Of a DNA stretch of 64,000 bases, positions 41,901 through 61,653 are shown one piece after another; position 1 is the first letter of the stretch; each line of letters opens with the position of its first letter. A model generated the notes under the pieces. That model saw only the letters and a program-made list of their open reading frames with translations, made no database searches and was not told the DNA's origin. Source of the DNA: Laccaria trichodermophora (taxonomy: Eukaryota > Basidiomycota > Agaricomycetes > Agaricales > Hydnangiaceae); contig JACTVC010000011.1 of NCBI GenBank assembly GCA_018417955.1, forward strand, positions 1,300,262 through 1,364,261, given 5' to 3'. Both the position numbers and the translations under genes were made by a program.

Positions 41901-43749
41901 ACCGACATGCAGATGGTGATTAATGCATCCATCACAAGATGGCCAACGCGAATGCATGGATCAACCCCAAGGAATTATGAAGTTCCCTTTGCCAGACCCG
42001 ATGCTCACGAACTTGTCATGGAGATGCAATTTAAGGGATAGATGCACATGTTCCGGCGTCGACGTCGGTCGATTTGTGAGAAGCCTGTAGTCATGTTTCT
42101 GGTCAGTTCGTCGTTCTGAATGTTGGGTTTGTATGTTTGCGAAGTGCGAGGCGACCGGTGCCGAGTAGCGAGTCTCCTGAGTCCTGTTGTGCCGAAAGGT
42201 TATAAGATCAATGGCGTGGACGCAAACGGCGAGATCACGAAGCAGAAATCTAGACTTCCAGCTAAACGCATCGGTCCGGGCGCCAAGTTTATGTGGTTGA
42301 TCTACATTAAGTATAACTTCACGGCGTCACTTGATGCATTCGTTGGTTTAAGTCAGGCTGGAGATACACACTTGTTGATATCAGAATCGCGGATAAGTGA
42401 AGGCTGTCAACGTCAATCTATAGACGCAGACACCACCAAGAAGCAGCCTATGGTATAAGAATGCATCCTGCGGAAGGGTCGAAAACCTGGTCAGTGACGC
42501 TCGCTCGGGGAAAGATATCGAAAGTGCACCTCAACGATTTTTGATCTTCAACTCGGATAGATGTACTTCGCATGAAGGCGGCACCGGAAGGATAACTTCC
42601 TTTCATTTTGAGGGAACAACGTTGCTTGCAATCCCGTTCGGCATGTATGTGTCCTGTATTTTCCTGTAGAAAAAAATGAAAAGTGCCATGACAGTTTCTT
42701 CTCATGCTTGGAGCCGGGGAAGCAGTGGTCGACCTGTATCGATCATAGCTTAGCGTCTGCGTCGAGGGATTCGAAAGTACCAGGCGTAACGAAGCGGCAC
42801 GATCCAAAGCAGGCCTTACAGTGCTTTGATAGACCAGCCTCCGGTTCTAGGCACCTTCTTGAACGTCACGTAGACAGTGTCACTAAGAGGATTATTTATG
42901 CCGATTATCCTCTGAAAAAGAGTACTCACCGTATGAATTGCACCTGCACACTAAGCATCCCGGCCTTCCTAATATGGAACGTTTTGGAGTCCAGGTGGCT
43001 TGACGGACTGAATAAATGACAATGGCTTGAGGCGGGTTCGAATTCAAGTTAGGAAGAAACTGAAAGTACATGCCGCCATCATCTGATTCGTCACAACCGT
43101 CAGAACACATTGAATAAAAAGAAGTGGTTTTTCGGTTCCTACTTGTTCCTGCGCTGAGCGAACAACGCTCTTTAAGACAGAAAATTGTGATCAAATTGTT
43201 ACTAGGTTATTGCGGTGTCGAATCGTTTAAAGTTCCGCATTTTGTTTTTCAACCAGATTGTACTTCTAGAAAGCCTGGTCGGCTACAGGCTCTTGAAAGT
43301 GAATATGTTTTGCGTCGGTTCAGCGCTTGAGTCGTCTAGTACTTGGCAGACGTAGCAAATGCCTTGCACCGTCACTGATCACTGTTCGAGTGGTGGAAAG
43401 AGAAAGGGGGTAATGTGACCATGAGACCCCGAATACTTGAGAACATCAGCACACAGGCCTCTTCCTCGTCCAAAACGACGACCTGTGGGGAGGAGTCTCC
43501 TTGTTTGATCTTTGATCAATCTTTGGTGTTGAAACGTTGACGGTTACAAAAAAAATGGATTACGTAACTCTCCTTCAAGTTATCGCCCTCTCTTGCACGA
43601 TCATCACCAACGGATCGCAAGTTCTCTCCAAACTGCTAACATTTTTGTCGGCCGATTTTACTCGGGCTCAAAATCAAGTTCAACCTAAGTAATCCATTGC
43701 AGATATCTTCCAAAACAGTTCTCAGCGTGCCACACACAGGTTACTGAAG
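38972..43749. other. 4.8-kb region without a recognisable gene
   Basis: Both strands hold only short ORFs (up to about 120 codons) with no family resemblance and no consistent splice chain. The first few hundred bases upstream of 38971 should include the P450 promoter. From about 43380 the sequence becomes the duplicated upstream region of the F-box family (shared with 46800 and 53800). Confidence 0.5.
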
Positions 43750-45503
43750 ATGGACAAGTCACCGTATGCTTCCTATCTCCACACCAACTATTCCCCCACG
43801 ACTTCAGAAATCTTTGGAATCAAGGATTTCCTAACAAAGCCACTTGCGCGGTTAACCCATCTAGAAGACGAGATTGACCGGTTGAATGCGATCATCGAAA
43901 AATTATGCGACGAGCATGAGGCTTTGAACGCGGAAATCGAGGCTCACAGAGCTCTCATCTCTCCTCTTCGTCGAATGCCTCTTGACATTATGGTGGAGAT
44001 CTTCACTCATTGTCTCCCTACGGACCACGATGCCGTCATGAGCACTCGAGAAGCTCCACTTCTGCTAGGTCGTGTTTGTAGCGAATGGAGATCTATCACA
44101 CTGTCAACTCCACGCCTTTGGGCAAGTCTTCACATTCTATCGTCGCCACCAGGGTCCTTCTATGGCGATTCTGCGCTCGATTTCAAAATTGAAAAATGCT
44201 GCAAGGGGGCAGAGGAATGGATTCGCCGCTCGGGAGAGTGTCCTCTCTCTATTTCCCTTCACACTCCAAATCCCACTCATCATCCCAACAGTTCTGTGAT
44301 GCAACCTTTTGAGAAGGTTTTAAAACAGATACTCCCTTCTAGCAAACGGTGGAAGGACTTCAACTGCAGAGGCCGAAATGACTCGTTGACTCATTTCCGA
44401 AAGATTGCGGAGGGTGATGTTCCGATGCTGGAATCTCTTGGAATTACCATCGCACCTGGAACGGTTTCAGAATTTTATGTGAAGACTACCGTGATGGACA
44501 TTTCAGGTCTCCTTTCAGCCCCAAAATTGCGGAAGCTCTCGTTAACGAGTTTCAGAGAAAACCTTCTCTCCTTGCCAGTGCGTTGGTCACAGCTCACCCA
44601 CCTTACATTGAATGCGGAGGACTCCAGCAAATTTTCGAGAACACTCACGTACAGCAAAGTTGGCAAAGTCTTGAAGAACTGCTTACAACTCGTGAGTTGT
44701 AGTCTCCGCCTCGGAAACACCCGACACAAGGATGTGCAGACCCCACAACTCAACCACTCAGTGTCCCTGAGCGAATACACCTTTACTCTCCCACTTCTCC
44801 GGAAACTTTGCCTCGTTTTCAGTGACAAATCAGACGAGGTGTTTTTGAAATACCTTGATTTACCCGTGCTTCGTCATCTGGAGATGAGCTTTGAAAGAGT
44901 TGGATGGCATAATGGGCCTGAATCAAAGACGCAATCAGCGAATCAGCGCTCTAATTTCATGGGCCTCCTCGAACAGCATGGTCATAAATTGAAGCATCTT
45001 GCCCTCGACACACGGTTACCTATAACCTCCCTTCATCAATTGAAGTCTACAACTGATTCTATTATTGATGAAGTTGTTGATCGGCTCACCCCTTCAGACG
45101 AAACCCCTGATTGTCTCTGTCCTTTGCTGGTAGAATTTCGGTGTAAAGGCTCAATGGGCGCAAGCTATTCTGAAGCACGCTTGCTATCTTTGTTGAACAG
45201 CGGTGTGTTCACGGGAAAGGGTCGACATTGAAACGAGCTGGTGTCACCCTTCATCGAAACGAGCCAGAGGACCTTGAAGACTTCCTTATTTCTCTGGATT
45301 CTAGAATTGAATGTGGAGACTATCTTCATTTTGAAGAGTTTGATAACGCACCAATTGACGCGCGCATATTCGTTAGATCTAATCTGGGCGAGGGACTCGC
45401 TACGACGGTTGTGGACATTCAGTACGCACAGAGCGAACCGGAGCGGGGGGAAGGGGATCACAGCTCGGAGTCACTGACTCCATGCTTTGTTCTTCGAATT
45501 TAG
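43750..45503 (+). pseudogene. F-box protein copy 1, frameshifted near the 3' end
   Basis: It opens MDKSPYASYLHTNYSPT, as do the other two copies. There is a coiled coil (LEDEIDRLNAIIEKLCDEHE), an F-box-like MPLDIMVEIFTHCLP, the GRVCSEWRSITLSTPRLWAS segment and leucine-rich segments. At about 45190 a T is missing from the run that reads ATCTTTTGTTGAA in copy 3 (ATCTTTGTTGAA here). This shifts the frame and gives a stop at 45231. The true C-terminus (RAGVTLHRNEPEDLEDFLI to CFVLRI) continues in another frame to 45503. An in-frame deletion removes about 15 codons near 45020. If it is translated, only the last ~90 residues are lost. Confidence 0.8.
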
Positions 45504-47095
45504 GCCCTTTTCACGATGGCACCAATGTTTTCTAGGTTTTCGTGTCTTCGATTCAGTAGTCATCTAATGTTTTCATGTACCACGAGCATCATCAGGAATT
45601 GAACCAGTAGAAACCGCAGTTATACTGCCCAAGACTTTCCTAGTCTTAGCTGAGTACACCGAAGTAGCGCATAACGTCTTCGCGGTATGACAGAATGTTT
45701 TTGCACAAAAAGGTTTCTTGTCATTTTTTGACTTGGAGCTGCAACCAGTTGGAGGCGGTGTTTTCTATCAGGTGTAACGATAGCCTGAAGAATGACATTT
45801 TCCAGAATAAAAATTAAAGTCCATTTCTAAAGTGGTCGTTGCGTTTTGCGACTCACCGTTCTCTCATAGTGTATTCTTCGACTTTGCCCAAAATAATGAT
45901 TCCCCATTCAACGCAGTGAAGGGGTCCGGACGTAGGTGTAGTGTAACCTAGATGGATACAGGATTTAATCTCAAAGTTTCGGAGGAGTTCAAGAGTCCGC
46001 ACCGCTTACCATCACTACACATCCATGGAGTTTTCAGCGCTGCCCAGTACTTACTATCAGACTCGGGGATGAGCCCAAATCACTCTACCCAACAGTAGTC
46101 CCGATTGTGGGTGAGAGACTTCATGCAATTGCAAGCACCGCATGGTTAAAATGAAGTCGGCCCTAGACAGCGAGGCAGGCCATTGGAATTGTGATTGTCG
46201 CCGGTCGCGGACTAATGGTAAATTTGTTTTTTCTTGTACTTGACTCGGAGTAGCTTGGGATAAAAAATAGACTATTGAAGACGCGTAGCAACAACCCAGA
46301 GAGTTTCGTGGGGGCCCAGAGTTTACACGATTATCGTTGAGGGTCAGCTTTGAAACAGCCTAGGTTGAGTACTTTCCAGCAAGAGAATTTTGTGTGGTCC
46401 GTCTGGACTCTGCACACTGATGATGCCTATTGATCGAGATTGCCAAGCCATTTTGTGTGGAGGTCGGAATAGGTCGGAATAGAGATAAAAGAGTGGAAGG
46501 GGAACGTGAAATCCTTCGGTCTGTAGCTTTGGGCTTCTGAGTTGGAGGAGTGAGGAAGATTCCGGCCCGGATGCGGCCGTTGATCATCAAAATCGCAAGT
46601 GTCTAAAAAGTTGCATTCAACAGCAATTCAACAGTGTACATACTCTTTGGAAAAAACGCCTTCAGTTCCCATCCCAAGCCCAGGAAAACAGGCTGGTGTC
46701 ATCTTTGGCTCTAATTCTTGGCTGAGTGCACAGCCGATATCTAGTTACTATTTTGCATCGGCCTTTCAGCGGCGTTTGCCTTGCTCATGGTGATCAGTTC
46801 GAGTGACGGAGAGCGAGAACAATGTTGGCACACAAGCCCCTGATCCAAAACGACGACCCGTGCGGAGAGCAGAGACAAAAAAAAAGTATTACGTAACTCT
46901 CCTTAATACTCTCCTGCACCACGATCATCTGCAGCAACAATTGCAAGGGATTGCAAGTTCTCATCGCCAGATTTTACTCAGGTTCAAAATCAAGTTCAAC
47001 CCAAGTAATCCATTGCAGATATTTCTTAAAACAGTTCCTCAGCATGCCTCACACAGGTTACTGTTCCTCAGCGTGCCTCACACATGTTACTGGAG
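45504..47095. repeat. Duplicated intergenic segment (partner at about 49080-50180)
   Basis: 45930-46800 matches 49080-50180 in order. Shared blocks include CAGACTCGGGGATGAGCC (46053 against 49350), GCAAGCACCGCATGGT/GCAAGCGCCGCATGGT, GGCCCGGATGCGGCCGTT (46563 against 50015) and CTAATTCTTGGC (46712 against 50150). In the second copy it leads straight into the GH16 gene, so this is the duplicated upstream region of that gene with the gene itself missing here. Confidence 0.65.
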
Positions 47096-48914
47096 ATGGA
47101 CAAGTCACCGTATACTTCCTATCTCCACACCAACTACTCCCCCACGGCTTTAGAAAGCCTTGAAATCAAGGATTTTCTAACAAAGCCACTTGCGCGGTTA
47201 TCCAGTATACAAGCCGAGATCGACCGGGTGAACTTGATCGTCGAAAAATTATATGACGAGCATCGCGCTCTGAATGCAGAGATCGAGGCTCACCGAGCTC
47301 TTCTCTCTCTCTCCTCTTCGTCAAGTACCTCTTGACATCATGGAGGAGATCTTCACCCATTGTCTCCCTACAGATTACAATGCCATCATGAGCGTTCGAG
47401 AAGCCCCACTTCTGCTAGGTCGTGTTTGTAGCGAATGGAGATCTATCACACTGTCAACTCCACGCCTTTGGGCAAGCCTCCACATTCCAGCACCGGCACC
47501 ACACTCCCCCTCTGAATACTTTGCATCCGTTCTCAAATTTGAAAAACAATGCAAGGGGACAGAAGAATGGATTCGCCGCTCGGGACAGTGTCCTCTCTCT
47601 ATTTCCCTCCACACTCCAAGTCCCCATTATCGTTTCAATATGGCTGAAATGCAACCTTTTGCGGAAGTTTCAAAGCAGATACTCCCTTTTACCAAAAGAT
47701 GGAAGAATTTTAGCTTCAAAGCGCCAACAGACTCGTCTCCTCAATTCCAAAAGATCGCGGAGGGTGATGTTCCGATGCTGGAAGCTCTTGGAATTACCAT
47801 CGTACCCCGAACGATTTACATTTCAGGTCTCCTTTCGGCCCCAAAGTTGCGGAAGCTCTCATTAACGTGTTTTAGAGAAAACCTTCTTTCCCTGCCAGTG
47901 TGTTGGTCACAGCTCACCCACCTTACATTGGATGCGGAGGGCTCTAGTAAACAATTCTTGGGAACGCCAAGCCCCCTCACGTACAGCGAAGTTAGCAAAG
48001 TGTTGAAGAACGGCTCACTACTCGTGAGTTGTAGCCTCCGCCTAGGAAACACCCCACGCGAGAATGTACAGATCCCGCCACTAAACGTCTCAGTGTCTCC
48101 CTGTGAATACACCTTTACTCTCCCACTTCTTCAGAAATTTTGCCTCGTTCTCAGTGACAAATCAGACGAGGCGTTTTTGAAATACCTTGATTTACCCGTC
48201 CTTCGTCATCTAGAGATCAGCTTTGAAATTGCATGGGCTGGTGAAGGATGGATACAAGCGGATCAGCGCTCTACTTTCATGGGCCTCCTCGAACAGCATG
48301 GTAATAAATTGAAGCATCTTGTCCTCGACATATGGATATTGTCACAAGACGATCTGTTATGTTGCTTGCAATCAGTCCCACTTGTTACTCACCTCCATCT
48401 AATCAATTCTACGAATGGTTCTATCTTTGATGAAGTTGCTGATAGGTTCACTCCTTCTGAAGAAAACCCTGATTGTCTTTGTCCTATGCTAGAAGAATTT
48501 CGGTGTAAAGACTCAGTGGGCGAGAACTTCAAGTTGTCCCAATCACGTCTGCTATTTTTTGTTGAAATGCGGTGTGTTCTTGGAAAAGGAGCGACATTGA
48601 AACGAGTTGACGTCACTCTTTATCGAGACAAGCCAAAGGACCTCCAAAGCTTCCTTATTTCCCTGGATTCTAGGATTGAATGTGGACGCTATCTTCGTTA
48701 TGAAGAGCTTGGTGACGCAGCAGTTGACGCGCGCATATTCGTCAAATCTGAGCGTTGTGAGGGACTTAATATGACGGTTGTGGACATTCAGTACGTACAC
48801 ACCGACCCGGACACATTTCGTTCGCATAGGGAAGGTCTAGATTTTTCAGGGCCAAGGGATCACAGGTCACCGTCCTCGGAATCACCGACTCAGTCCTTTA
48901 TTCTTCGAGTTTAG
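47096..48914 (+). pseudogene. F-box protein copy 2, disrupted by CT-repeat expansion
   Basis: It starts MDKSPYTSYLHTNYSPT with the same coiled coil (RVNLIVEKLYDEHRALNAEI). At about 47300-47316 it has four extra bases in a CT run (TTCTCTCTCTCTCC against TTCTCTCTCC in copy 3), exactly between the coiled coil and the F-box (PLRQVPLDIMEEIFTHCLP). The first frame stops at 47335. The second is open from 47274 to 48914 and contains the F-box and all leucine-rich segments. It could be used from an internal start (ATG 47274 or 47341), losing only the coiled coil. The 3' end FILRV differs from the FILRI/FVLRI of the others. Confidence 0.75.
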
Positions 48915-49079
48915 CCCTTTTTCGAGATGGTACCAACATTTTTCAGGTTTCTGCAGTCTGTGATTTGATAGTTCAAATCTATTATGTCTTCACGTACCAC
49001 CGGGCATATCTCTTTCTGCTCATTCTTGTCAGCGGAATAACAGGACTGTTAAGCTGTACCCAAATTAATGATGCCCCAC

Positions 49080-50342: not shown

Positions 50343-51840
50343 ATGGCCATGGGTGCTCTCACCAACCTCCTCCTCCTCCTCTCCCTCACCACGTCCCAAA
50401 CCCAAGCACTCTACTACCCCCTCCGCGAATACTCTGGCTCAACATTCTTCGACAAATGGGACTATTACGGTTTTGTGGATAATACTACTTGGGGTACGTC
50501 TCCCTTCCCCCTCGTCTTTTCCTTTCCGTTCAACGTACTTTCGTAAAAATTTAAAAGGAAACGTAACATACCAAGACCGCGCAAACGCGACTTCCAAAGG
50601 CCTCACATCCATCAACGCCGCAGGAAACGCGATCATCAAAGTCGATAATACAACGACACTCGTCGCGGCTCCCGCTGGTACAGTCGTCAATCGTGATTCC
50701 GTGCGTTCCCTTTCCCCCCTTCCCTTTCTCGTTCCGCTAACCTCCCTCCCCTAGATCCGCATAACTTCACAAGACTCTTACCCCCTCGGCACCCTCATCC
50801 TCCTCGACGCCCTACACATCCCCTATGGCTGTTCCGTCTGGCCCTCCTTCTGGACATTAGGCCTCCAATCCACCTGGCCAGGCTCCGGCGAGATAGATAT
50901 AGTAGAAGCCATCAACGGGATGACACGTAATCAGATCGCACTGCACACTCCCGAGGGGTGTAATCAAGCTGCACAAGCAACACAATTGCAGAGCGGGACG
51001 ACGGCGAATACGAATTGCGCAGAGCCGAGGGGATGTATTGTTATGGAGAATAAGCAGGCGAGTTTTGGTGCGGCTTTTGGAGAGGGGGGTGGTGGTGTTT
51101 ATGCGATGAGTATGGAGAGGGAGGGGGTGTATGTTTGGTTTTGGAGCGTGCGTTTTCTTTCTACCTTCTTTTTGTGAGGTTGACGCGTTTTTTAGCGAGC
51201 GGACATACCGTCAAGCATAAGGACCGCTACTTCCACGAGCACGATGGACACTTCTTCGTGGGGTCTCCCGACGGCGGCGTACCCTGCTTCGGGGTGTAAC
51301 ATTACACAGTACTTCCCTCCGCAGAACTTGGTGTTGTTGACGACACTTTGTGGTGCTTGGTGCGTTCTTTTCTTCTTCGCGTCCTTCTCCTCCTCTTCGC
51401 CCCATTCCTTCCTCCTACTCACCTTGACAACAGGGCAGGCGTACCATCCATATACTCATCAACTTGTCCCGGGACTTGTGTAAGTCTCCCTTCCCTCCCT
51501 TTCTCCGATTACTCATTCATATATGCGCCCTTTCTAAAAAAAACAGTTCGCAGATAACGTCCTAGGCTCCGGGGAGAACTACGCCAATGCGTATTGGGAG
51601 ATTCGGTATATACGGACGTATACCTCTGACTCGAGTGTGAGCCTTCCTGTTAGTAGTAGTACCAGTGCGAGTGCGAGTGCTACGCAGGGGGGAGGAGGGG
51701 GGACGACGGTTGTTACTGTTGTTACGGACGCTGCGAGGCCTACGAGTAGTACGAGTGGGTCGGTCAGGGGGAAAGGCACGGGGGCGGTTGGCGTGGTTGG
51801 CGTGGTGGGCATGGTTTTGTTGATGGGGGTTTTGGTTTAG
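50343..51840 (+). CDS. GH16 endo-1,3(4)-beta-glucanase, probably GPI-anchored
   Basis: Six exons (50343-50493, 50558-50700, 50755-51147, 51196-51359, 51434-51479, 51547-51840) total 1191 nt, or 396 residues. A signal peptide (LTNLLLLLSLTTSQTQA) precedes LREYSGSTFFDKWDYYGF. The catalytic GH16 motif is GEIDIVEAING (ExDxxE) in exon 3, followed by WPSFWTLG-type substrate-cleft residues just upstream and YVWFWS, CNITQYFPPQNLV, LCGAW/AGVPSIYSSTCPGTC downstream. The end is Ser/Thr-rich (SSSTSASASATQ), then a C-terminal hydrophobic stretch (GAVGVVGVVGMVLLMGVLV) typical of a GPI-attachment signal. It should cut or remodel beta-1,3/1,4- or 1,3/1,6-glucan at the wall. A fragment of its 3' end recurs at 56.8-57.06 kb. 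Confidence 0.9.
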
Positions 51841-52184: not shown

Positions 52185-53701
52185 ATGGTTGAGATTGTTA
52201 TTCTTCCGCCCCCAGAGATAAAATGTAAGCAGTACTTCTCCCTACCTCACAAGACCTTCTGACTCTCTGCCACACAGCCGTCATCGACAAAACCGCCATA
52301 TTTGTCGCGCGTTCCGCCAATCCTTCTCAATTCGAGGACAAACTCCGCGAGAGGCAGCGCTCTGACCCCAACTTCTCGTTCTTAGACCCAGCTAATACGT
52401 ACCATGGTTATTATCGTCACAAAAAAGGCATCTGGGGTGACGACGCTTTGGAGATGAAGGACGAAGAAAATAAAGCGGAAGAGGAACTCGCTGCCACTGG
52501 TGGGGATTCTTCAAAACCAATTTCTTATATCCCGCTTGGACACCTCACAGCAACTTCTGCCAAGCTAATTCAGTCAATGGCTGATATTCTTCCGCCCCCA
52601 GAGATAAAATGTAAGCCAGTACTTGAAGTTCGAATTCTCCCTACCTCACAAGGACCTTCTGAATCTCGCCACACAGCCGTCATCGACCAAACCGCCCTCT
52701 TCGTTGCGCGTTCCGCCAATCCTACTCAATTCGAGGACAAAATTCGCGAGAGGCAGCGCTCTGATTCTAAATTCTCGTTTTTGGACCCAGCTGATACATA
52801 TCATGGGTATTATCGTCACAAAAAGGGCGTCTGGGGTGACGACGCTTTGGAGATGGAGATGAACTTGGACGAACAAATTAAAGGGGAAGAGGAACTCGCC
52901 GCTAGTGGGGATTCTTCAAAACCAATTTCGAATTCTTACATCCCAGAAGCACACCACACAATATCCGAGTCAACGCCAACAACTGCCACTACCAAGTTAA
53001 TTCAGCTTAAAGGCATTGCCGACATCTTCGTCGCGCTCATACTCACCGTGAACCCGCAGTTCATCTATGATTCGCCCGCGACGCATACGTTGAGTGGGTT
53101 AAGTGGGCTCGTAAGTTTTTTATCCTCTCCTTCAATTTTTTTCTCTTTTCCACCTTTCCTCTACGTTCCACAGCTGATTTTTATTTTTTGGGAATACTCA
53201 TAGCATATATCAAATGCAAACACCGCACGGGGGTTCAACCAATCCATCGCGTGTATGGTCGCTGCTGTCGGAGTGGGGCATTTAGTTGCGTCGAGGGCGG
53301 CGGGGAGGGAGAGGGGAGTGCGGTGTACGATATGTACGTGTTTGATGCTCTTCCTTTTTCAATTCAATTGGGAGCTCCTCCCGCATTTTCCATTTCGTCC
53401 TTACCCAGTTATTTTTCTCCCATCTTATTTTCCCCCACTTGCCATATTTTTTTTACCCAACCCCACAACCCCCATGTCGAGCGACCAACTCACCCACTTT
53501 TTTATTGCAGTCGCAATGAACTTCACCTGGTCCATCCTCGGCTTCCTCACCTGCGCGCAGCCCGTCGAAAAAGGTGTAGGAAGTGCAACACTGCTCATGT
53601 CGAGCATCTCACATGCATTATTTAGTTTGGTGTTTTTGTATTTGGATGGTGGGGATATGTTTGGGAGCGAGACTCGGAATGGGAATGGGAAGAGGGATTG
53701 A
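52185..53701 (+). CDS. Fusion: two SURP (SWAP) modules plus four-helix membrane domain
   Basis: Exons 52185-52224, 52278-52610, 52677-53110, 53204-53333 and 53511-53701 sum to 1128 nt (375 residues) with every junction in frame. Residues about 6-75 and 125-195 are two SURP domains of the SF3A1/Prp21 type: ILPPPEIK, VIDKTAIFVARSANPSQFED, FSFLDPANTYHGYYRHKKGI and the near-identical second copy. Each is cut by an intron at the same place, so the unit duplicated with its intron. A linker (STPTTATTKL) leads to a membrane domain with helices around IADIFVALILTVNPQFIY, SIACMVAAVGVGHLVA, MNFTWSILGFLTC and SATLLMSSISHALFSLVFLY. The same membrane domain exists alone at 57262-57981. SURP domains bind partner proteins in the spliceosome, so a membrane tether is unexpected. 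Two genes read as one is the main alternative. Confidence 0.7.
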
Positions 53702-54110
53702 TTCTATTGAGGTTTATGATCATGTTTGGGCGACGGAGTCGTTGAATTTTGCACACCGGTTGATAAAATTTTCTTGCACATGCCACTAATCAGTTCGAGT
53801 GGGTAATGTAATCATGAGACCCAGAATACTTGAGAACCTCGGCAGACAGGCCTTTTCATCATTGAAAACGACGACGTGTTGCATCTCTTGTTTGATGTCG
53901 ACGGTTGGTTGACGGCATAGGATTACGTAACTCGCGTTATCGCTCTCCTGCACCACGATCATCTTCACCAACGGATTGCAATTTCTCTCCAAACTGCTAA
54001 CATTTGTGTCGGCAGATTGTACTCAGGCTCAAAATCAAGTTCAACCTAAGTAATCCATTGCAGATATGTTCCAAAACAGTTCTCAGCGTGCTACACACAG
54101 GTTACCGAAG
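53702..54110 (+). promoter_or_regulatory. Duplicated upstream region of F-box copy 3
   Basis: This segment matches 43380-43749 and, more patchily, 46800-47095. Shared blocks are CATGAGACCC, AAAACGACGAC, TTTGATG..GACGGTT and the AAGTAATCCATTGCAGATAT stretch ending at the start codon. It is probably the family promoter and leader. Confidence 0.5.
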
Positions 54111-55904
54111 ATGGACAAGTCACCGTATGCTTCCTATCTCCACAGCAACTACTCCCCCACGGCTTCAGAAATTCTTGAAATCAAGGATTTTATAATAAAG
54201 CCACTTGCGCGGTTAGCCAGTATAGAAGCCGAGATTTACCGGGTAAAGTTGATCGTCGAAAAATTATATGACGAGCATCGTGCTCTGAATGCAGAGATTG
54301 AGGCTCACCGAGCTCTTCTCTCTCCTCTTCGTCAAGTACCTCTTGACATTATGGAGGAGATCTTCACCCATTGTCTCCCTACAGATCACAATGCCGTCAT
54401 GAGCACTCGAGAAGCTCCACTTCTGCTAGGTCGTGTTTGTAGCGAATGGAGATCCATGATCACACTGTCAACTCCACGCCTTTGGGCAAGCCTTTACATT
54501 CCATCGTCGCCACTAGAGTCCTTCTTGGGTCATTCTGTGCCCGATTTCGAAATTGAAAAATGCTGCAAGGGGGCAGAGGAATGGATTCGCCGCTCGGGAG
54601 AGTGTCCTCTCTCTATTTCCCTTCACACTCCAAGCCCCCGTTATCATTCCCGTTATCATTCCAACAGCTCTGCAATGCAAGCTTCTGAGAAGCTTCTAAA
54701 ACAGATACTCCCTCTTAGCAAACGATGGAAGAATTTCAGCTTCAGAGCGCCAAAAGACTCTTCTACTCATTTCCAAGAGATCGCTAAGGGTGATGCTCCG
54801 ATGCTGGAATCTCTTGAAATTACCACCGTACCTGCAAGGCTTTTGAATTTGTTTGTTGCGACTACCCTGATGGACGCTTCAGGTCTCCTTTCAGCCCCAA
54901 AATTGCGGAAGCTCTCGTTAACGTGTTTTAGAGAAGACCTTCTTTCCTTGCCAGTGTGTTGGTCACAGCTCACCCACCTTACATTGGATGTGGAGGGTGC
55001 CCATTATGTGAGTACGCCAAGCCGCCTCACGTACAGCCAAGTTAGCAAAGTGTTGAAGAACTGCTCACTACTCGTGAGTTGTAGCCTCCGCCTAGGAAAC
55101 ACCCCACGCGAGAATGCACAGACCCCACCACTAAACGTCTCAGTGTCTCCCAGCGAATACACCTTTACTCTCCCACTTCTTCAGAAATTTTGCCTCGTTC
55201 TCAGTGATAAATCAGACGAGGTGTTTTTGAAATACCTTGATTTACCTGTCCTTCGTCATTTGGATATGAGCTTTGAAACTATCCGGGCTAGTGGCATAGG
55301 GATACTGGAGGATCAGCGCTCTACTTTCATGGACCTCCTCGAACAGCATGGTAATAAATTGAGGCATCTTGTCCTCAACATATGGACATTAACACAAGAC
55401 GATCTGATATGTTGCTTGCAATCAGTCCCACATATTACCCACCTCCATCTAATTAATTCTGCTGGTTCTATCCTTGCAGATCGGCTCACTCCTTCTGACG
55501 AAAACCTTGATTGTCTCTGTCCTATGCTAGAAGAATTTCAGTGTAAAGGCTCAATGGGCGCAAGCTTTTCTGAAGCACGTCTGCTATCTTTTGTTGAAAA
55601 GCGGTGTATTCCCGGGAAAGGGTCGACATTGAAACGAGCTGGTGTCACCCTTCATCGAAACCAGCCAGAGGACCTTGAAGACTTCCTTATTTCTCTGGAT
55701 TCTAGGATTGAATGTGGAGACTATCTTCATTTTGAAGAGCTTGATAACGCACCAATTGACGCGCGCATATCCGTTAGATCTAAGTCGGACGAGGGACTCG
55801 CTATGACGGTTGTGGACATTCAGTACGCACAGAGCAAACGGGAGCGGGCGGAAGGGGATCACAGCTCGGAGTCACTGACTCCATGCTTTATTCTCCGAAT
55901 TTAG
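54111..55904 (+). CDS. F-box protein copy 3, intact
   Basis: I chose ATG 54111 (MDKSPYASYLHSNYSPT) over the in-frame ATG at 54066 because all three copies share it. The coiled coil (IEAEIYRVKLIVEKLYDEHR) precedes the F-box-like VPLDIMEEIFTHCLP, then GRVCSEWRSMITLSTPRLWA with one extra Met relative to the other copies. Leucine-rich segments follow to CFILRI. It is open for 597 codons where copies 1 and 2 are frameshifted, and its CT run and T run have the lengths that keep the frame. Likely the one working member of the group, acting as an SCF adaptor with unknown substrate. Confidence 0.85.
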   Translation: MDKSPYASYLHSNYSPTASEILEIKDFIIKPLARLASIEAEIYRVKLIVEKLYDEHRALNAEIEAHRALLSPLRQVPLDIMEEIFTHCLPTDHNAVMSTREAPLLLGRVCSEWRSMITLSTPRLWASLYIPSSPLESFLGHSVPDFEIEKCCKGAEEWIRRSGECPLSISLHTPSPRYHSRYHSNSSAMQASEKLLKQILPLSKRWKNFSFRAPKDSSTHFQEIAKGDAPMLESLEITTVPARLLNLFVATTLMDASGLLSAPKLRKLSLTCFREDLLSLPVCWSQLTHLTLDVEGAHYVSTPSRLTYSQVSKVLKNCSLLVSCSLRLGNTPRENAQTPPLNVSVSPSEYTFTLPLLQKFCLVLSDKSDEVFLKYLDLPVLRHLDMSFETIRASGIGILEDQRSTFMDLLEQHGNKLRHLVLNIWTLTQDDLICCLQSVPHITHLHLINSAGSILADRLTPSDENLDCLCPMLEEFQCKGSMGASFSEARLLSFVEKRCIPGKGSTLKRAGVTLHRNQPEDLEDFLISLDSRIECGDYLHFEELDNAPIDARISVRSKSDEGLAMTVVDIQYAQSKRERAEGDHSSESLTPCFILRI

Positions 55905-56550
55905 CCCCTTTTCACGATGGCACCAACGTTTTTTAGGTTCCCGTGGTCTGTGATTCAGTAGTCATCTAATGTCATAATGTACCACCGGGCACCATCAGGA
56001 ATTGAGCCAGTAGAAACCGCAGTCATCCTACCCAAGAGTTTTCAAAGTCTTGGCCGAGTGCACCCAATTAGCGCAAGAGAATGTTTTCGCACAAAAAGGT
56101 TTCTTGTCATTTTTAACTCGGAGCTGCAACCAGTTGAAGGCGGTGTTTTCTGTGAGGTGTAAAGATAGCCCAGACAGTGTTATTGCCCAGAGTTATTAAT
56201 ATTCACGTCCATTTTTGAAGTGCTAGTGACGTTTCGCGAGCCACCGTTCCCTAGCATGCCTGAAGCAACGATTCGCCTTTTTGTAAAGGGATACGGTAGC
56301 CTTGGCTGAGTGTGCCTCAGTAGCGCAAAATTAATCCGTGGTATGAGAGAATGGTCTACGCAAAAAGGTTTCTTGTCATTTTTTGACTCGGAGCTGCAAC
56401 CAGTTGAAGACCGTGGAGGTGCAACGATATGTCATTGCCCTGAGTTATGAAAATCACCGAAGTGCTAGTTGCGTTTTGCGAGTCACCGTTCCCTAGCACT
56501 GTATTCTTCGACTTTGACCAAACAGGGATTCGCCATTTTGTGAAGAATCC
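55905..56550. repeat. Duplicated downstream segment with internal tandem copy
   Basis: 55905-56160 matches 45495-45780 downstream of F-box copy 1 (shared blocks CACAAAAAGGTTTCTTGTCA and GAGCTGCAACCAGTTG). The same 110-bp piece recurs at about 56300-56420, so three copies exist in the window (near 45710, 56090 and 56370). No gene is present. Confidence 0.6.
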
Positions 56551-56554
56551 GGAC

Positions 56555-57062
56555 GTAGTCTTGTGTTTTTGTATCTGGATGGAGGGGATATGTTTGGGAG
56601 CGAGAGTCGGAATGGGAATGGGAAGAGGGATTGATTTTATCGAGTGTTATGAATATGTTTGGGCTGCAGAGTCGTTATCAAATTTCAAGATACACGCATC
56701 AACTTTTGCCTTGTACTTATCATTGACGACGGCCCCGTTTCTTGCTCCTACTCAGTGCCTCGCTTCCTTGTTGTGCTAATAAAAACACGATAACAACAGG
56801 GCAGGCGTACCATCCATATACTCATCAACGTGTCCCGGGACTTGTGTATGCCTTCTCCCTTCCCTCCCTTCAAAGACTGACCCCCTCCCTCCCCTCTTCA
56901 TATATGCGCCCTTTGAAATCAGTTTGCAGATAACGTCCTAGGCTCCGAAGCGAACTACGCCAGCGCATAAGTATTTGGAAATTCGGTATATACGGACGTA
57001 TGCTTCTGACGGTGCGAGCCTTCCCGTCAGCAGCACTTCTACTGGAGGGAGTTTGATTTAGT
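56555..57062 (+). pseudogene. Fragments of the membrane-domain gene tail and of the GH16 3' end
   Basis: 56555-56690 copies the end of the SURP/membrane gene (LCFCIWM..GICLGARVG in a shifted frame, with the GGGAATGGGAAGAGGGATTGA end found at 53682 and 57962). 56800-57062 copies the last GH16 exons (the GCAGGCGTACCATCCATATA stretch, then GCAGATAACGTCCTAGGCTC and GGTATATACGGACGTATG). A TAA after AGCGCA and loss of the C-terminal anchor sequence show it cannot code for the enzyme's end. Confidence 0.75.
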
Positions 57063-57261: not shown

Positions 57262-57981
57262 ATGCCCATGCCAGCAACCGCCAGGCTAATTCAGCTCAAA
57301 GGCATCGCCGAGATCTTCGTTGCGCTCATACTCACCGTGAACCCGCAGTTGATCTACGATTCGCCGGCGACGCACAAGCTGAGTGAATTAAGTGGACTCG
57401 TAAGTCTTCTCCTCTCCTTCCCTTTCCCTCAGCCTCTTCTCTGCCCTCTTAAACTGGACATTCCCCGTAAATTCTAAATCAATTCCGCATCATCCGGAAT
57501 AGCATATATCAAATGCAAGCACGGCACCGGGGTTCAATCAATCCATCGCATGTATGGTTGCTGCTGTCGGAGTGGGGCATTTAGTGGCGTCAAGGGCGGG
57601 GAGGGGAGCACGGTCTACGATATGTACGTGTTGTCTTACGCCTCAATTCAATTCGGTGTTTTTCCCCCTCACCTTTTTGAATTTCCTCCTTACCCACCCT
57701 CCCTTTCATCATATTTTCCTCCTGCATTTTCTTCCCCCCAACACCTCAACGTTCAACCCTCAACTCGACACAGCAACTCACCTCACTCTATAGTCGCAAT
57801 GAACCTCACCTGGTCCCTCCTCGGCTTGCTAACCTGCGCGCAGCCCGTCGAAAAAGATTTAGGAAGCGCAACGCTGCTCATGTCGAGCATATCACATGCA
57901 GTGTTTAGTTTTGTGCTTTTGTGTCTGGATGGGGGGGATATGTTCACTGGGACTCGGAATGAGAATGGGAAGAGGGATTGA
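57262..57981 (+). CDS. Small four-helix membrane protein (stand-alone copy)
   Basis: Three exons (57262-57399, 57503-57623, 57794-57981) sum to 447 nt, or 148 residues: MPMPATARLIQLKGIAEIF, VALILTVNPQLIYDSPATHK, then HISNASTAPGFNQSIACMVA, AVGVGHLVASRAGR, MNLTWSLLGLLTCAQ and SATLLMSSISHAVFSFVLLC. It is the same domain as the C-terminal part of the fusion at 52185-53701, with introns at identical positions. The lack of SURP modules suggests this is the ancestral form. It is an uncharacterised fungal membrane family; the GFNQSIACMVAxVGxGHLxA segment appears to be its signature. The C-terminal tail NGKRD is basic. Confidence 0.75.
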
Positions 57982-58039
57982 TTTTATCGAGGTTCACAAT
58001 CATCTTTGGGCGACGGAGTGGTTATTATATCCCAACATA

Positions 58040-58709
58040 CAGTTGCGGACAAGCAAAGTCATCTAAAAATATTAACTTTTTTTAAAAGCCCCGAAAATAG
58101 TCGGAATCGACGCAGATTCACGAGAGCTTTCCAGCCATACCACTTTCATCAAATTCTATCGAGCCGATCCCTCAGAAATCGCCAAAATAAGGTTTTTCTG
58201 CCTCAAAATATTGGCGGACCCTAAATTTCACCCAAAAATCATGAAAAATAGTGCAATCGACTCCTTTTGATGAAAGGGTTATGATCCCATAAAAATTAGC
58301 AACTTTTATCGATCCATTTCGGGTAAATAAATTCATTGATAGTTGCCAAAAATGGTAATTGATTAGTGATCAACCATATTTAGTCTCTGCTCGGACCCCT
58401 CCAGAGTCCCTGATCTGTGGTCAGTCTTCTTGTTAGAATTTCTGTGACTTTTTGTTAGATGGTACCTATCACTACCGAGAATTTTACCCCACAACTGACG
58501 AGATTTGAGTAGTTTTGGTCATCAAGGACCCTGAATTGAGGCAAAAAATTGGTCCAAAAATTTGGCGGACCCAATTTCTCGTGGGAAAAACTTCGGAGGT
58601 GTGTTTTTCGATGTATTTCAACAAGCTGGCCATGATCCCGAAGTTTGGTGCCATTTTATCCAGCCGTTCCCGCGCTACCAAATTAGATGACTTTGCTTGT
58701 CCGCAACTG
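58040..58709. mobile_element. TA-flanked MITE (Tc1/mariner-like)
   Basis: 27-bp perfect terminal inverted repeats beginning CAGTTGCGGACAAGCAAAGT, with TA on both flanks (58038-58039 and 58710-58711). Length 670 bp, no transposase. The inside is AT-rich, with a partly repeated GGCGGACCC motif (58213 and 58562). Confidence 0.85.
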
Positions 58710-58711
58710 TA

Positions 58712-59673: not shown

Positions 59674-60045
59674 ATGCGCGGATTTAATTCTTCACTCGCC
59701 CTCATTCTTGCATTCGTCAGTGTCATAATTGCAGCGTCATCCTCTGCAGATCCGTCGGATGTCGTCGCATCCTCAGCGCCCAGCTCCGTTGTCCCCGCAG
59801 CACCCGAGGCCCCTGATGGCGCCGTTATCAAGGAGGCCGTTGCAACGCTCCTGAAGGCGGCCGCCTCAGCCAATGCCAAACAAGGTGGTTCGTTGATCCA
59901 ACCCGATGCCTCAAAGAAATGCAACCCACCAGGTGCCTCATGCAATATCTTTGACGATGTCTGTTGCCGAGGAATTTGTCTCCCCGTAGGAATTTTCGTA
60001 GTGAGTCCACGACATTGTGTCGCTGAACGGTTTGATGCTAACTGA
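59674..60045 (+). CDS. Small secreted cysteine-rich protein, knottin-like C-terminus (123 aa)
   Basis: ATG 59674 gives a signal peptide (FNSSLALILAFVSVIIAASS), an Ala/Pro/Ser-rich propeptide-like stretch, a helical segment (VIKEAVATLLKAAASANAK) and a C-terminal module with six cysteines. The pattern is C-x6-C-x6-CC-x3-C-x12-C (KKCNPPGASCNIFDDVCCRG onwards), which fits an inhibitor cystine knot. No other cysteines are present. Small secreted proteins of this kind are candidate effectors or antimicrobial peptides, but nothing here shows a target. Single exon, intact. Confidence 0.7.
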   Translation: MRGFNSSLALILAFVSVIIAASSSADPSDVVASSAPSSVVPAAPEAPDGAVIKEAVATLLKAAASANAKQGGSLIQPDASKKCNPPGASCNIFDDVCCRGICLPVGIFVVSPRHCVAERFDAN

Positions 60046-60724
60046 ATTCCTCGCCTTTACTGAAGGGCGTTTGCGTTGGGTGATGGATTTTGGCAGAGGT
60101 TCTCGTAGTAGATGGTGTTGAGCAGGATGATCTGGACAATTACCGTATTGTTTTTATGTCATGTCAGATAACCAGAAAAAAACGTACTAGTCGACAATAA
60201 CTTTAACCTTCTTAGTTTCAAGGAAACACACTTCTGCCGGACTCTGGTTGAATTCGAAAAACGCCCTGCCTCCTTCCGCGTGAATCTTCTGTCTTTGCTT
60301 CTCTTGGCCCCGCCATCCGTCGCCGACTCCACTCGGCAAACGATCATTTTTCGGCAATCTAGCCACTTGTGACTTGAGGTTTTTGAGTGCGTTTGGCTTC
60401 GTTACATGGCCAGGCAGTGGTTGCAGACGGATCTGTCCCCTCAGCATCTGTCAGATTCACAGACCATGAGCAAAACATTTTGTCCTAGGGTTTGCGAGCA
60501 CTTGAGTAATTGTTCCCTTAAGTGTGGCGTACTATACGCTCCAAGGCGGAATAGTCTGGGATGATTGTCTGCGATCGCCCAGTATCAGCTGGAGGGCGTT
60601 GTGGAATATAAGCTCCTTGAAGCGAAATCAGCAAACGGGTCGCCCTCCGAGATTCCTTTGAGTGATTGCTATGGGAACGATGATCAGAGATAGGTTGTCG
60701 AATCCCGCACAACAAACATAGTCC

Positions 60725-61653
60725 AGGACCTGGGAAAGTCCTGTTGGAGCCCTGATCCGCTTCCGGACAAAAATTTAACGAAAATCCGGATATGCCTCAG
60801 GGCTATCCGGACAAAATTTTGGAATTTTTTTGAAAATCCCTAAGGTAGAGGTGCGGACAAAAGTGGCCCAAATTTGATATGGCCTGATCCACTCCGGACA
60901 AAAATTGGTCAAAAAGATGGACTTTTTCATGGTATTCACAGTTTTTGCTTGACATTTGAGAGCCACGTATAATTTAAGTAATTATGAGATGTAGGGAACA
61001 AGCTTGAGATTTGCTCTATTGTTTGCTCTGCACAGTTCCTTCGCATCAAGGCATGCTGTCCCATGCACCAAGCACCACCAAAGATTGTTCAACGCTCGCA
61101 TTACAGCGCTTTCAGAGTAGGATGGGAAAGTGTGATTTTTTGTAAGCGTGTGTGACGTACGTAGTTTCCCTTTTAGGAATTGGGGGCGAAGATGTTTTTC
61201 GCCTTCCTCAGCCTTCCCTAGCCCACTCCTTCATATCAGAGTTAATATTTTAACACCCCATAGTGTTGGGGGAAGAGGGATTGAGCAGAAGGGCGAGGCG
61301 ACACATAGGCACTGCGAGGTGGGCAATTCCTCAAAGGGAAACTACGTACGTCACACATGCTTACAAAAAATCACACTTTCCCATTCTACTCTGAAAGCGC
61401 TGTAACACAAGAGGACCGTGAAACATATAAAGTTGAATACGTACACACCTCTCCTTATAGCCTACAGATGCTCTGGAAGCCCGCGTAGCGGAAATTTACC
61501 TATTAAATGCCTGATCCAGCGTGCGGACAAAAATTTGAAAAAGTCAAACCCTAATCCGCAGTGCGAACAGATTTTTTGAGGATTTGTCCAGACAAAAATC
61601 GCCAGATTTTGCGATTTTTGGATCAGGGATTCAACAGGACTTTCCCAGGTCCT
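60725..61653. mobile_element. hAT-like non-autonomous transposon with 8-bp target duplication
   Basis: Terminal inverted repeats start AGGACCTGGGAAAGTCCTGT on both ends and extend through CCCTGATCC with few mismatches. The flanks are CATAGTCC at 60717-60724 and at 61654-61661, an exact 8-bp duplication as made by hAT elements. Subterminal repeats of CGGACAAAAATTT type lie near both ends (60765, 60808, 60853, 60896 and 61522). No transposase is encoded. It contains a nested MITE at 61104-61402. Confidence 0.85.
61104..61402. mobile_element. TA-flanked MITE nested in the hAT-like element
   Basis: Inverted repeats of about 85 bp, starting CAGCGCTTTCAGAGTAG and continuing through GTGTGATTTTTTGTAAGC and GACGTACGTAGTTTCCC, with TA at 61102-61103 and 61403-61404. 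Length 299 bp with a short unique centre. It inserted after the outer element, because it interrupts it. The arms are nearly identical, so it may be young. Confidence 0.85.

Follow-up and report, generated by a model that had tools for sequence, protein, structure and literature searches.

A predicted chimeric gene of Laccaria trichodermophora joining two SF3A1-type SURP modules to a four-helix membrane protein

Closest described systems

The nearest described counterparts of the locus are SF3A1 (SF3a120, yeast Prp21), the human SURP protein CHERP and a small four-helix membrane protein of mushrooms that has no Pfam family (LACBIDRAFT_291947 and relatives). According to PMC4666396, SF1 binds SURP1 of SF3A1 directly via a stretch that immediately follows its zinc knuckle, which is also where human SF1 has its SURP-interacting domain, and CHERP possesses a single SURP domain. 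CHERP resembles the present product as a SURP protein reported at or near the endoplasmic reticulum; a multi-helix membrane domain of the present kind was not seen in the descriptions of it.

The gene found at positions 52185–53701 of the window, i.e. of the whole stretch of 64,000 nucleotides analysed, consists of two copies of SURP1 and a membrane domain. Both units match SURP1 of SF3A1, including the intron position, and the source gene is present in the same genome, but SURP2 and the C-terminal part are missing from the fusion, as is the nuclear setting of SF3A1. The membrane protein family comprises proteins of 107–159 aa (209 aa in two intron-containing readings) without SURP and, in contrast to them, the fused copy has lost its own start codons.

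Both domains are known singly, and their combination was not found in the three protein searches that were run: none of the 152 proteins retrieved, 125 matching SURP and 27 the membrane family, contained both, the first of these searches having scored the best 7994 of a larger number of candidates. A search of plasmid DNA gave no match. No report of a SURP domain in Laccaria was found in the open-licence literature, and none of the matches listed there brought a SURP domain and a transmembrane domain together in one report. An earlier note on this DNA could name no known precedent for a membrane-bound SURP protein; this stood for the fusion of SURP with a four-helix membrane domain, which was absent from the searches, while the reported endoplasmic reticulum location of CHERP speaks against the more general claim.

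Structure of the fused gene and sources of its parts

The predicted structure of the gene includes five exons, which splice to 1128 nt (a multiple of three) and form one open frame that encodes 375 aa and ends in a stop; all four introns are bordered by GT..AG. The features of the gene and of its copies in the window are:

52185..52224, forward strand: exon 1, start codon and MVEIVILPPPEIK, the N-terminal edge of SURP unit 1
52225..52277, forward strand: intron 1, 53 nt, at a position identical to that of SF3A1 intron 1
52278..52610, forward strand: exon 2, the remainder of SURP unit 1 and its tail ending in TATSAKLIQ (a remnant of the membrane-gene start), then the start of unit 2, MADILPPPEIK
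52611..52676, forward strand: intron 2, 66 nt, duplicated from intron 1; its length is divisible by three and it has no stop, so that the frame stays open even if it is retained
52677..53110, forward strand: exon 3, SURP unit 2, then the linker, then membrane helix 1
52950..52987, forward strand: linker DNA that matches the stand-alone membrane gene from its 5' flank into its start (DNA alignment)
53204..53333, forward strand: exon 4, membrane helix 2 and the loop after it; the membrane part has its first in-frame ATG here, at 53255 (M287)
53511..53701, forward strand: exon 5, membrane helices 3 and 4, C-terminal tail and stop
56556..56676, forward strand: third partial copy, limited to the membrane gene's 3' end, 88% to 53623–53743
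57262..57981, forward strand: stand-alone membrane gene, exons 57262–57399, 57503–57623 and 57794–57981, 148 aa

A CTRAY-type branch motif was present in intron 1 and absent from intron 2.

The Pfam Surp profile (PF01805) matched the 375-aa product in two stretches with an E-value of 1.4e-33 and 115.1 bits against a curated cut-off of 21.1, and the units scored singly reached 61.8 and 60.2 bits. Surp was the only Pfam family above its cut-off, and the arrangement of SF3A1/Prp21 proteins, in which SURP1 is followed by SURP2 and a Prp21-type C-terminal region, was not found in the product. Human SF3A1 was the closest sequence match of the SURP units among solved structures, both units aligning to its SURP1 and not to SURP2. 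The SF3A1 of the host, which carries both SURPs, is located elsewhere in the genome (contig C67), and its intron between PPPEIK and SVID occupies the same position as in units 1 and 2. At the DNA level the first SURP part of the fusion was 75% identical to the host SF3A1 (E 8.3e-51). A Surp search of the whole host genome (59.0 Mb in 77 contigs) recovered four modules among the best candidates scored, two in SF3A1 and two in the fusion, and no further SURP source was found among them. The copied 5' part lacks approximately 36 codons of the N-terminal region of SF3A1, and the similarity to SF3A1 extends from SURP1 a short distance into its acidic tail; this short run, together with the intron position, indicates a DNA copy of the SF3A1 5' part rather than a reverse-transcribed one. 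In the SURP protein tree (16 rows used from 18 names supplied) the two units and a database relative, P0129, formed one clade (100/100) and the parent SF3A1 was not placed, for which reason the claim of SF3A1 parentage is based on the intron position and the DNA match. The conserved SURP columns were kept at 18 of 20 positions in unit 1, 20 of 20 in unit 2 and 19 of 20 in P0129 (counted from 54 of 130 proteins fitting a motif pattern, with 51 SURP1 references). All three share N-to-D and P-to-T changes in the otherwise conserved loop before YHGYY, which could alter binding.

By its sequence, the membrane part of the fusion is a second copy of a four-helix protein of about 140 aa known from mushrooms. 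It aligned to the stand-alone copy with 76% identity over 778 DNA columns (E 1.4e-155); this match, like that of the first SURP part to SF3A1, is too strong to be due to chance. Of the 38 columns shared by at least 90% of 17 relatives it keeps 37, and no Pfam family matched it. The hydropathy profile of the fusion contained four hydrophobic stretches, all within residues 232–357 and none N-terminal of these, and the predicted structure of the Laccaria bicolor relative P0104 (pLDDT 84) included helices at 3–24, 53–76, 78–100 and 110–130, which makes the fused part a predicted four-helix membrane protein. It is at most a candidate for the NACHO/TMEM35A or DoxX-like fold of 9h9e_B. The stand-alone protein was 93% identical to P0104. 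Among the 27 family members found by protein search, 15 had a species name, all of them mushrooms that we take to be Agaricales. At sites where the stand-alone copy and L. bicolor agreed against the fusion, the latter sometimes had the residue of the wider family (e.g. in 15 of the 16 outgroup rows at one site and in 11 of the 13 at another), indicating that the two copies split before the stand-alone gene separated from that of L. bicolor. The duplication took in a whole block, as follows from the 3' fragment at 56556–56676 and from a partial copy, at 56793–57033, of the upstream neighbour gene (50344–51840).

With these results, the claims of the earlier note on the anatomy of the locus held: five exons in frame over 1128 nt, two SF3A1-type SURP modules with the same internal intron, their in-frame joining to a membrane domain, and the presence of that domain alone 4 kb away. 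The analysis specifies SURP1 for both units and places the intron in the host SF3A1 as well.

The sequence of events can be read partly from the junctions. The ATG CCC ATG of the stand-alone gene aligns with ACG CCA ACA in the fusion, the ACG at 52973–52975 standing opposite the ATG at 57262, and the tail end of unit 1 corresponds to the beginning of that gene (CCAAGCTAATTCAG vs CCAAGTTAATTCAG). As the unit 1 tail holds this remnant, the joining of SURP to the membrane gene preceded the tandem duplication of SURP. In the proposed scenario, a segment of SF3A1 running from the start through PPPEIK, intron 1 and SURP1 into the acidic tail would have been copied as DNA and would have landed 5' of a duplicated gene of the small four-helix membrane protein, whose 5' flank turned into an in-frame linker and whose start codons were lost; the SURP unit, intron included, would later have been duplicated in tandem.

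P0129 (114 aa, from a 984-base contig with two member sequences) was 85% identical to unit 2. It shares the linker of the fusion, including both threonines in place of the membrane-gene methionines, lacks the intron and terminates with TTAM at the SURP-membrane junction, which may represent either a stop or the contig end. No membrane protein from the same contig was present among the matches of the membrane-family search. Other proteins of the same source (e.g. P0136) keep the SURP intron as read-through, on which basis P0129 is probably RNA-derived, although it may also be an intron-less gene copy. It supports the SURP-linker part, and does not clearly favour or oppose the fusion.

The surroundings include three tandem F-box-like gene copies with 75–82% identity (43405–45864, 46875–49006 and 53798–56252), the middle one with an F-box-like match below threshold (E 0.0049). 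The gene at 50344–51840 presumably encodes a fungal GH16 enzyme; no Pfam family matched the first part of it, and the partial copy of its 3' part at 56793–57033 adjoins the stand-alone membrane gene. Just 3' of the latter is a non-coding element (58038–58711) whose 29-nt terminal inverted repeats are perfect and which looks like a MITE: the genome search listed 68 matches, seven of them, including itself, full-length at at least 98%. Further downstream are a gene (59674–60090) whose small cysteine-rich product of approximately 114 aa looks secreted and has a weak Pfam match below the cut-off, and an element between 34-nt inverted repeats with 94% identity (60725–61653), containing an inner 82-nt inverted repeat (61101–61182/61324–61405).

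Selection on the frame and rival explanations

Compared with each other, units 1 and 2 gave an omega of 0.184 (LRT 10.5) in their SURP cores, against 0.676 (LRT 0.64) in the adjoining tail and linker. In a three-sequence SURP test, neutrality on both unit branches was rejected (lnL -372.48 vs -368.07, a cost of 4.4 log units), while a single branch set neutral lowered lnL by 1.43 or 1.15, neither branch alone rejecting neutrality. The membrane part compared with the stand-alone copy showed an omega of 0.287 (LRT 16.45), with 0.189 (LRT 12.33) for the 57 codons before the ATG at 53255 and 0.328 (LRT 6.18) for the 72 codons after it, these pairwise tests being by themselves silent on which of the two copies is constrained. 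A tally of replacements assigned nine to the fusion line and nine to the stand-alone line, indicating that the fused gene is not in decay. The tally was based on 16 sites at which the fusion differed from both others, its residue being rarer in the outgroups at nine, commoner at six and tied at one, and on three further sites changed in the stand-alone gene only, with two sites at which all three differed left out and the calls at three sites depending on differences of one or two counts. Exon identity was 85–90% vs 59–68% for introns, and all six exonic indels were multiples of three, compared to one of the eight intronic ones. The SURP-unit gaps between matching in-frame anchors were 9, 6, 21 and 3, a count less independent than it looks, since with both anchors in frame the total is forced to a multiple of three. 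In simulations of neutral change, the probability of the entire frame surviving was 0.225 to 0.018 at 0.05 to 0.15 changes per site, which makes the lack of stops alone weak evidence. Altogether, these data give signs that the locus is kept by selection and is not debris.

The possibility that the locus is a young fusion without function, considered in the earlier note, is consequently not favoured, given the constrained SURP cores and membrane part and the frame-keeping exonic indels. As a recent chimeric pseudogene, with a frame still open and decay yet to come, it would fit the absence of the fusion from the other proteomes searched, the surroundings rich in tandem duplications and mobile elements, and a stop-free survival possible by chance; we nevertheless consider this improbable, as omega was below 1 in the SURP cores and in the membrane part on both sides of the first internal ATG (LRT 6.2 to 16.5), though not in the linker, exonic indels preserve the frame, the replacement counts are equal on the fused and stand-alone lines, and a relative of the SURP-linker part with 85% identity exists in P0129. 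Somewhat less improbable, albeit still unlikely, is a functional membrane protein with a passenger SURP, where selection would act on the membrane domain and SURP would serve as a soluble N-terminal extension or a dimerising handle without a splicing partner. The 37 of 38 conserved columns kept in the membrane part and the N-to-D and P-to-T changes common to the SURP units agree with it, but the SURP core has evolved at an omega of 0.18 since the tandem duplication next to a nearly neutral tail, and the conserved SURP columns are kept at 18, 20 and 19 of 20 in unit 1, unit 2 and P0129.

A different question is whether the SURP and membrane parts belong to one gene. An arrangement of two adjacent genes, one encoding a short SURP protein and the other a membrane protein started separately, e.g. 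from the ACG at 52973 (ACG being a possible near-cognate start codon) or from the in-frame ATGs in the unit 2 tail at 52853 and 52859, would be compatible with the end of P0129 at the junction. However, there is no stop between the two parts, no ATG occurs in any frame between 52900 and 53066, both ATGs of the stand-alone gene are missing in the fusion, and the membrane part offers no in-frame ATG before the one at 53255, within the second helix, while the codons preceding that ATG look constrained. Moreover, the frame of P0129 is unbroken across the equivalent of 52911–52990. A split into two genes at 52920–52980, which the earlier note had named as the outcome that would overturn the fusion, is thus unlikely, and the two-gene explanation as a whole is given a low probability. 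A single fused gene, presumably expressed as a single transcript, is favoured by these sequence features.

Predicted action and significance

The best explanation, which we regard as reasonably probable, is a chimeric protein-coding gene composed of SF3A1 SURP1 copies and a membrane protein, with cytosolic modules perhaps binding SF1. Its product would be an integral membrane protein with two N-terminal SURP1 modules, probably on the cytosolic side; the TM2-TM3 loop has three basic charges and one acidic, and from these few charges the prediction leans weakly towards a cytosolic N terminus. The structure matches of the SURP units included the solved SURP1-SF1 chain 7vh9 and, judging from this and from their similarity to SURP1, both units are predicted to be of the SF1-binding SURP type (subgroup 1). 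The SF1 of the host (L023) possesses a conserved-looking stretch, FDSEYASLMAELGE, right after two zinc knuckles, which presumably resembles that of human SF1; a comparison of this stretch with solved chains gave no match.

If the SURP1 modules bind SF1, the ligand of SURP1 in SF3A1, they may either tether or titrate it, and the most likely action predicted, at modest odds, is that the modules bind SF1, or a ligand like it, at the membrane surface. Of the other readings in the earlier note, a decoy and a membrane-tethered RNA-processing factor, either may apply. A more speculative and rather improbable extension is that in one mushroom lineage two SURP1 modules anchored in a membrane capture SF1 at the endoplasmic reticulum or the nuclear envelope and shift the choice of branch point. 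The protein would then act as a decoy for the spliceosome, derived from one of the spliceosome's own parts.

Overall, the locus is a real chimeric gene and probably a functional one, restricted to one lineage as far as seen. It presents several steps of gene birth together, i.e. the parent SF3A1, the stand-alone gene, the fused copy, the loss of start codons and the tandem duplication of a domain, intron included. Should the fusion protein be produced and interact with SF1, part of the splicing machinery would have been recruited to a membrane, offering a testable new link between splicing factors and membranes.
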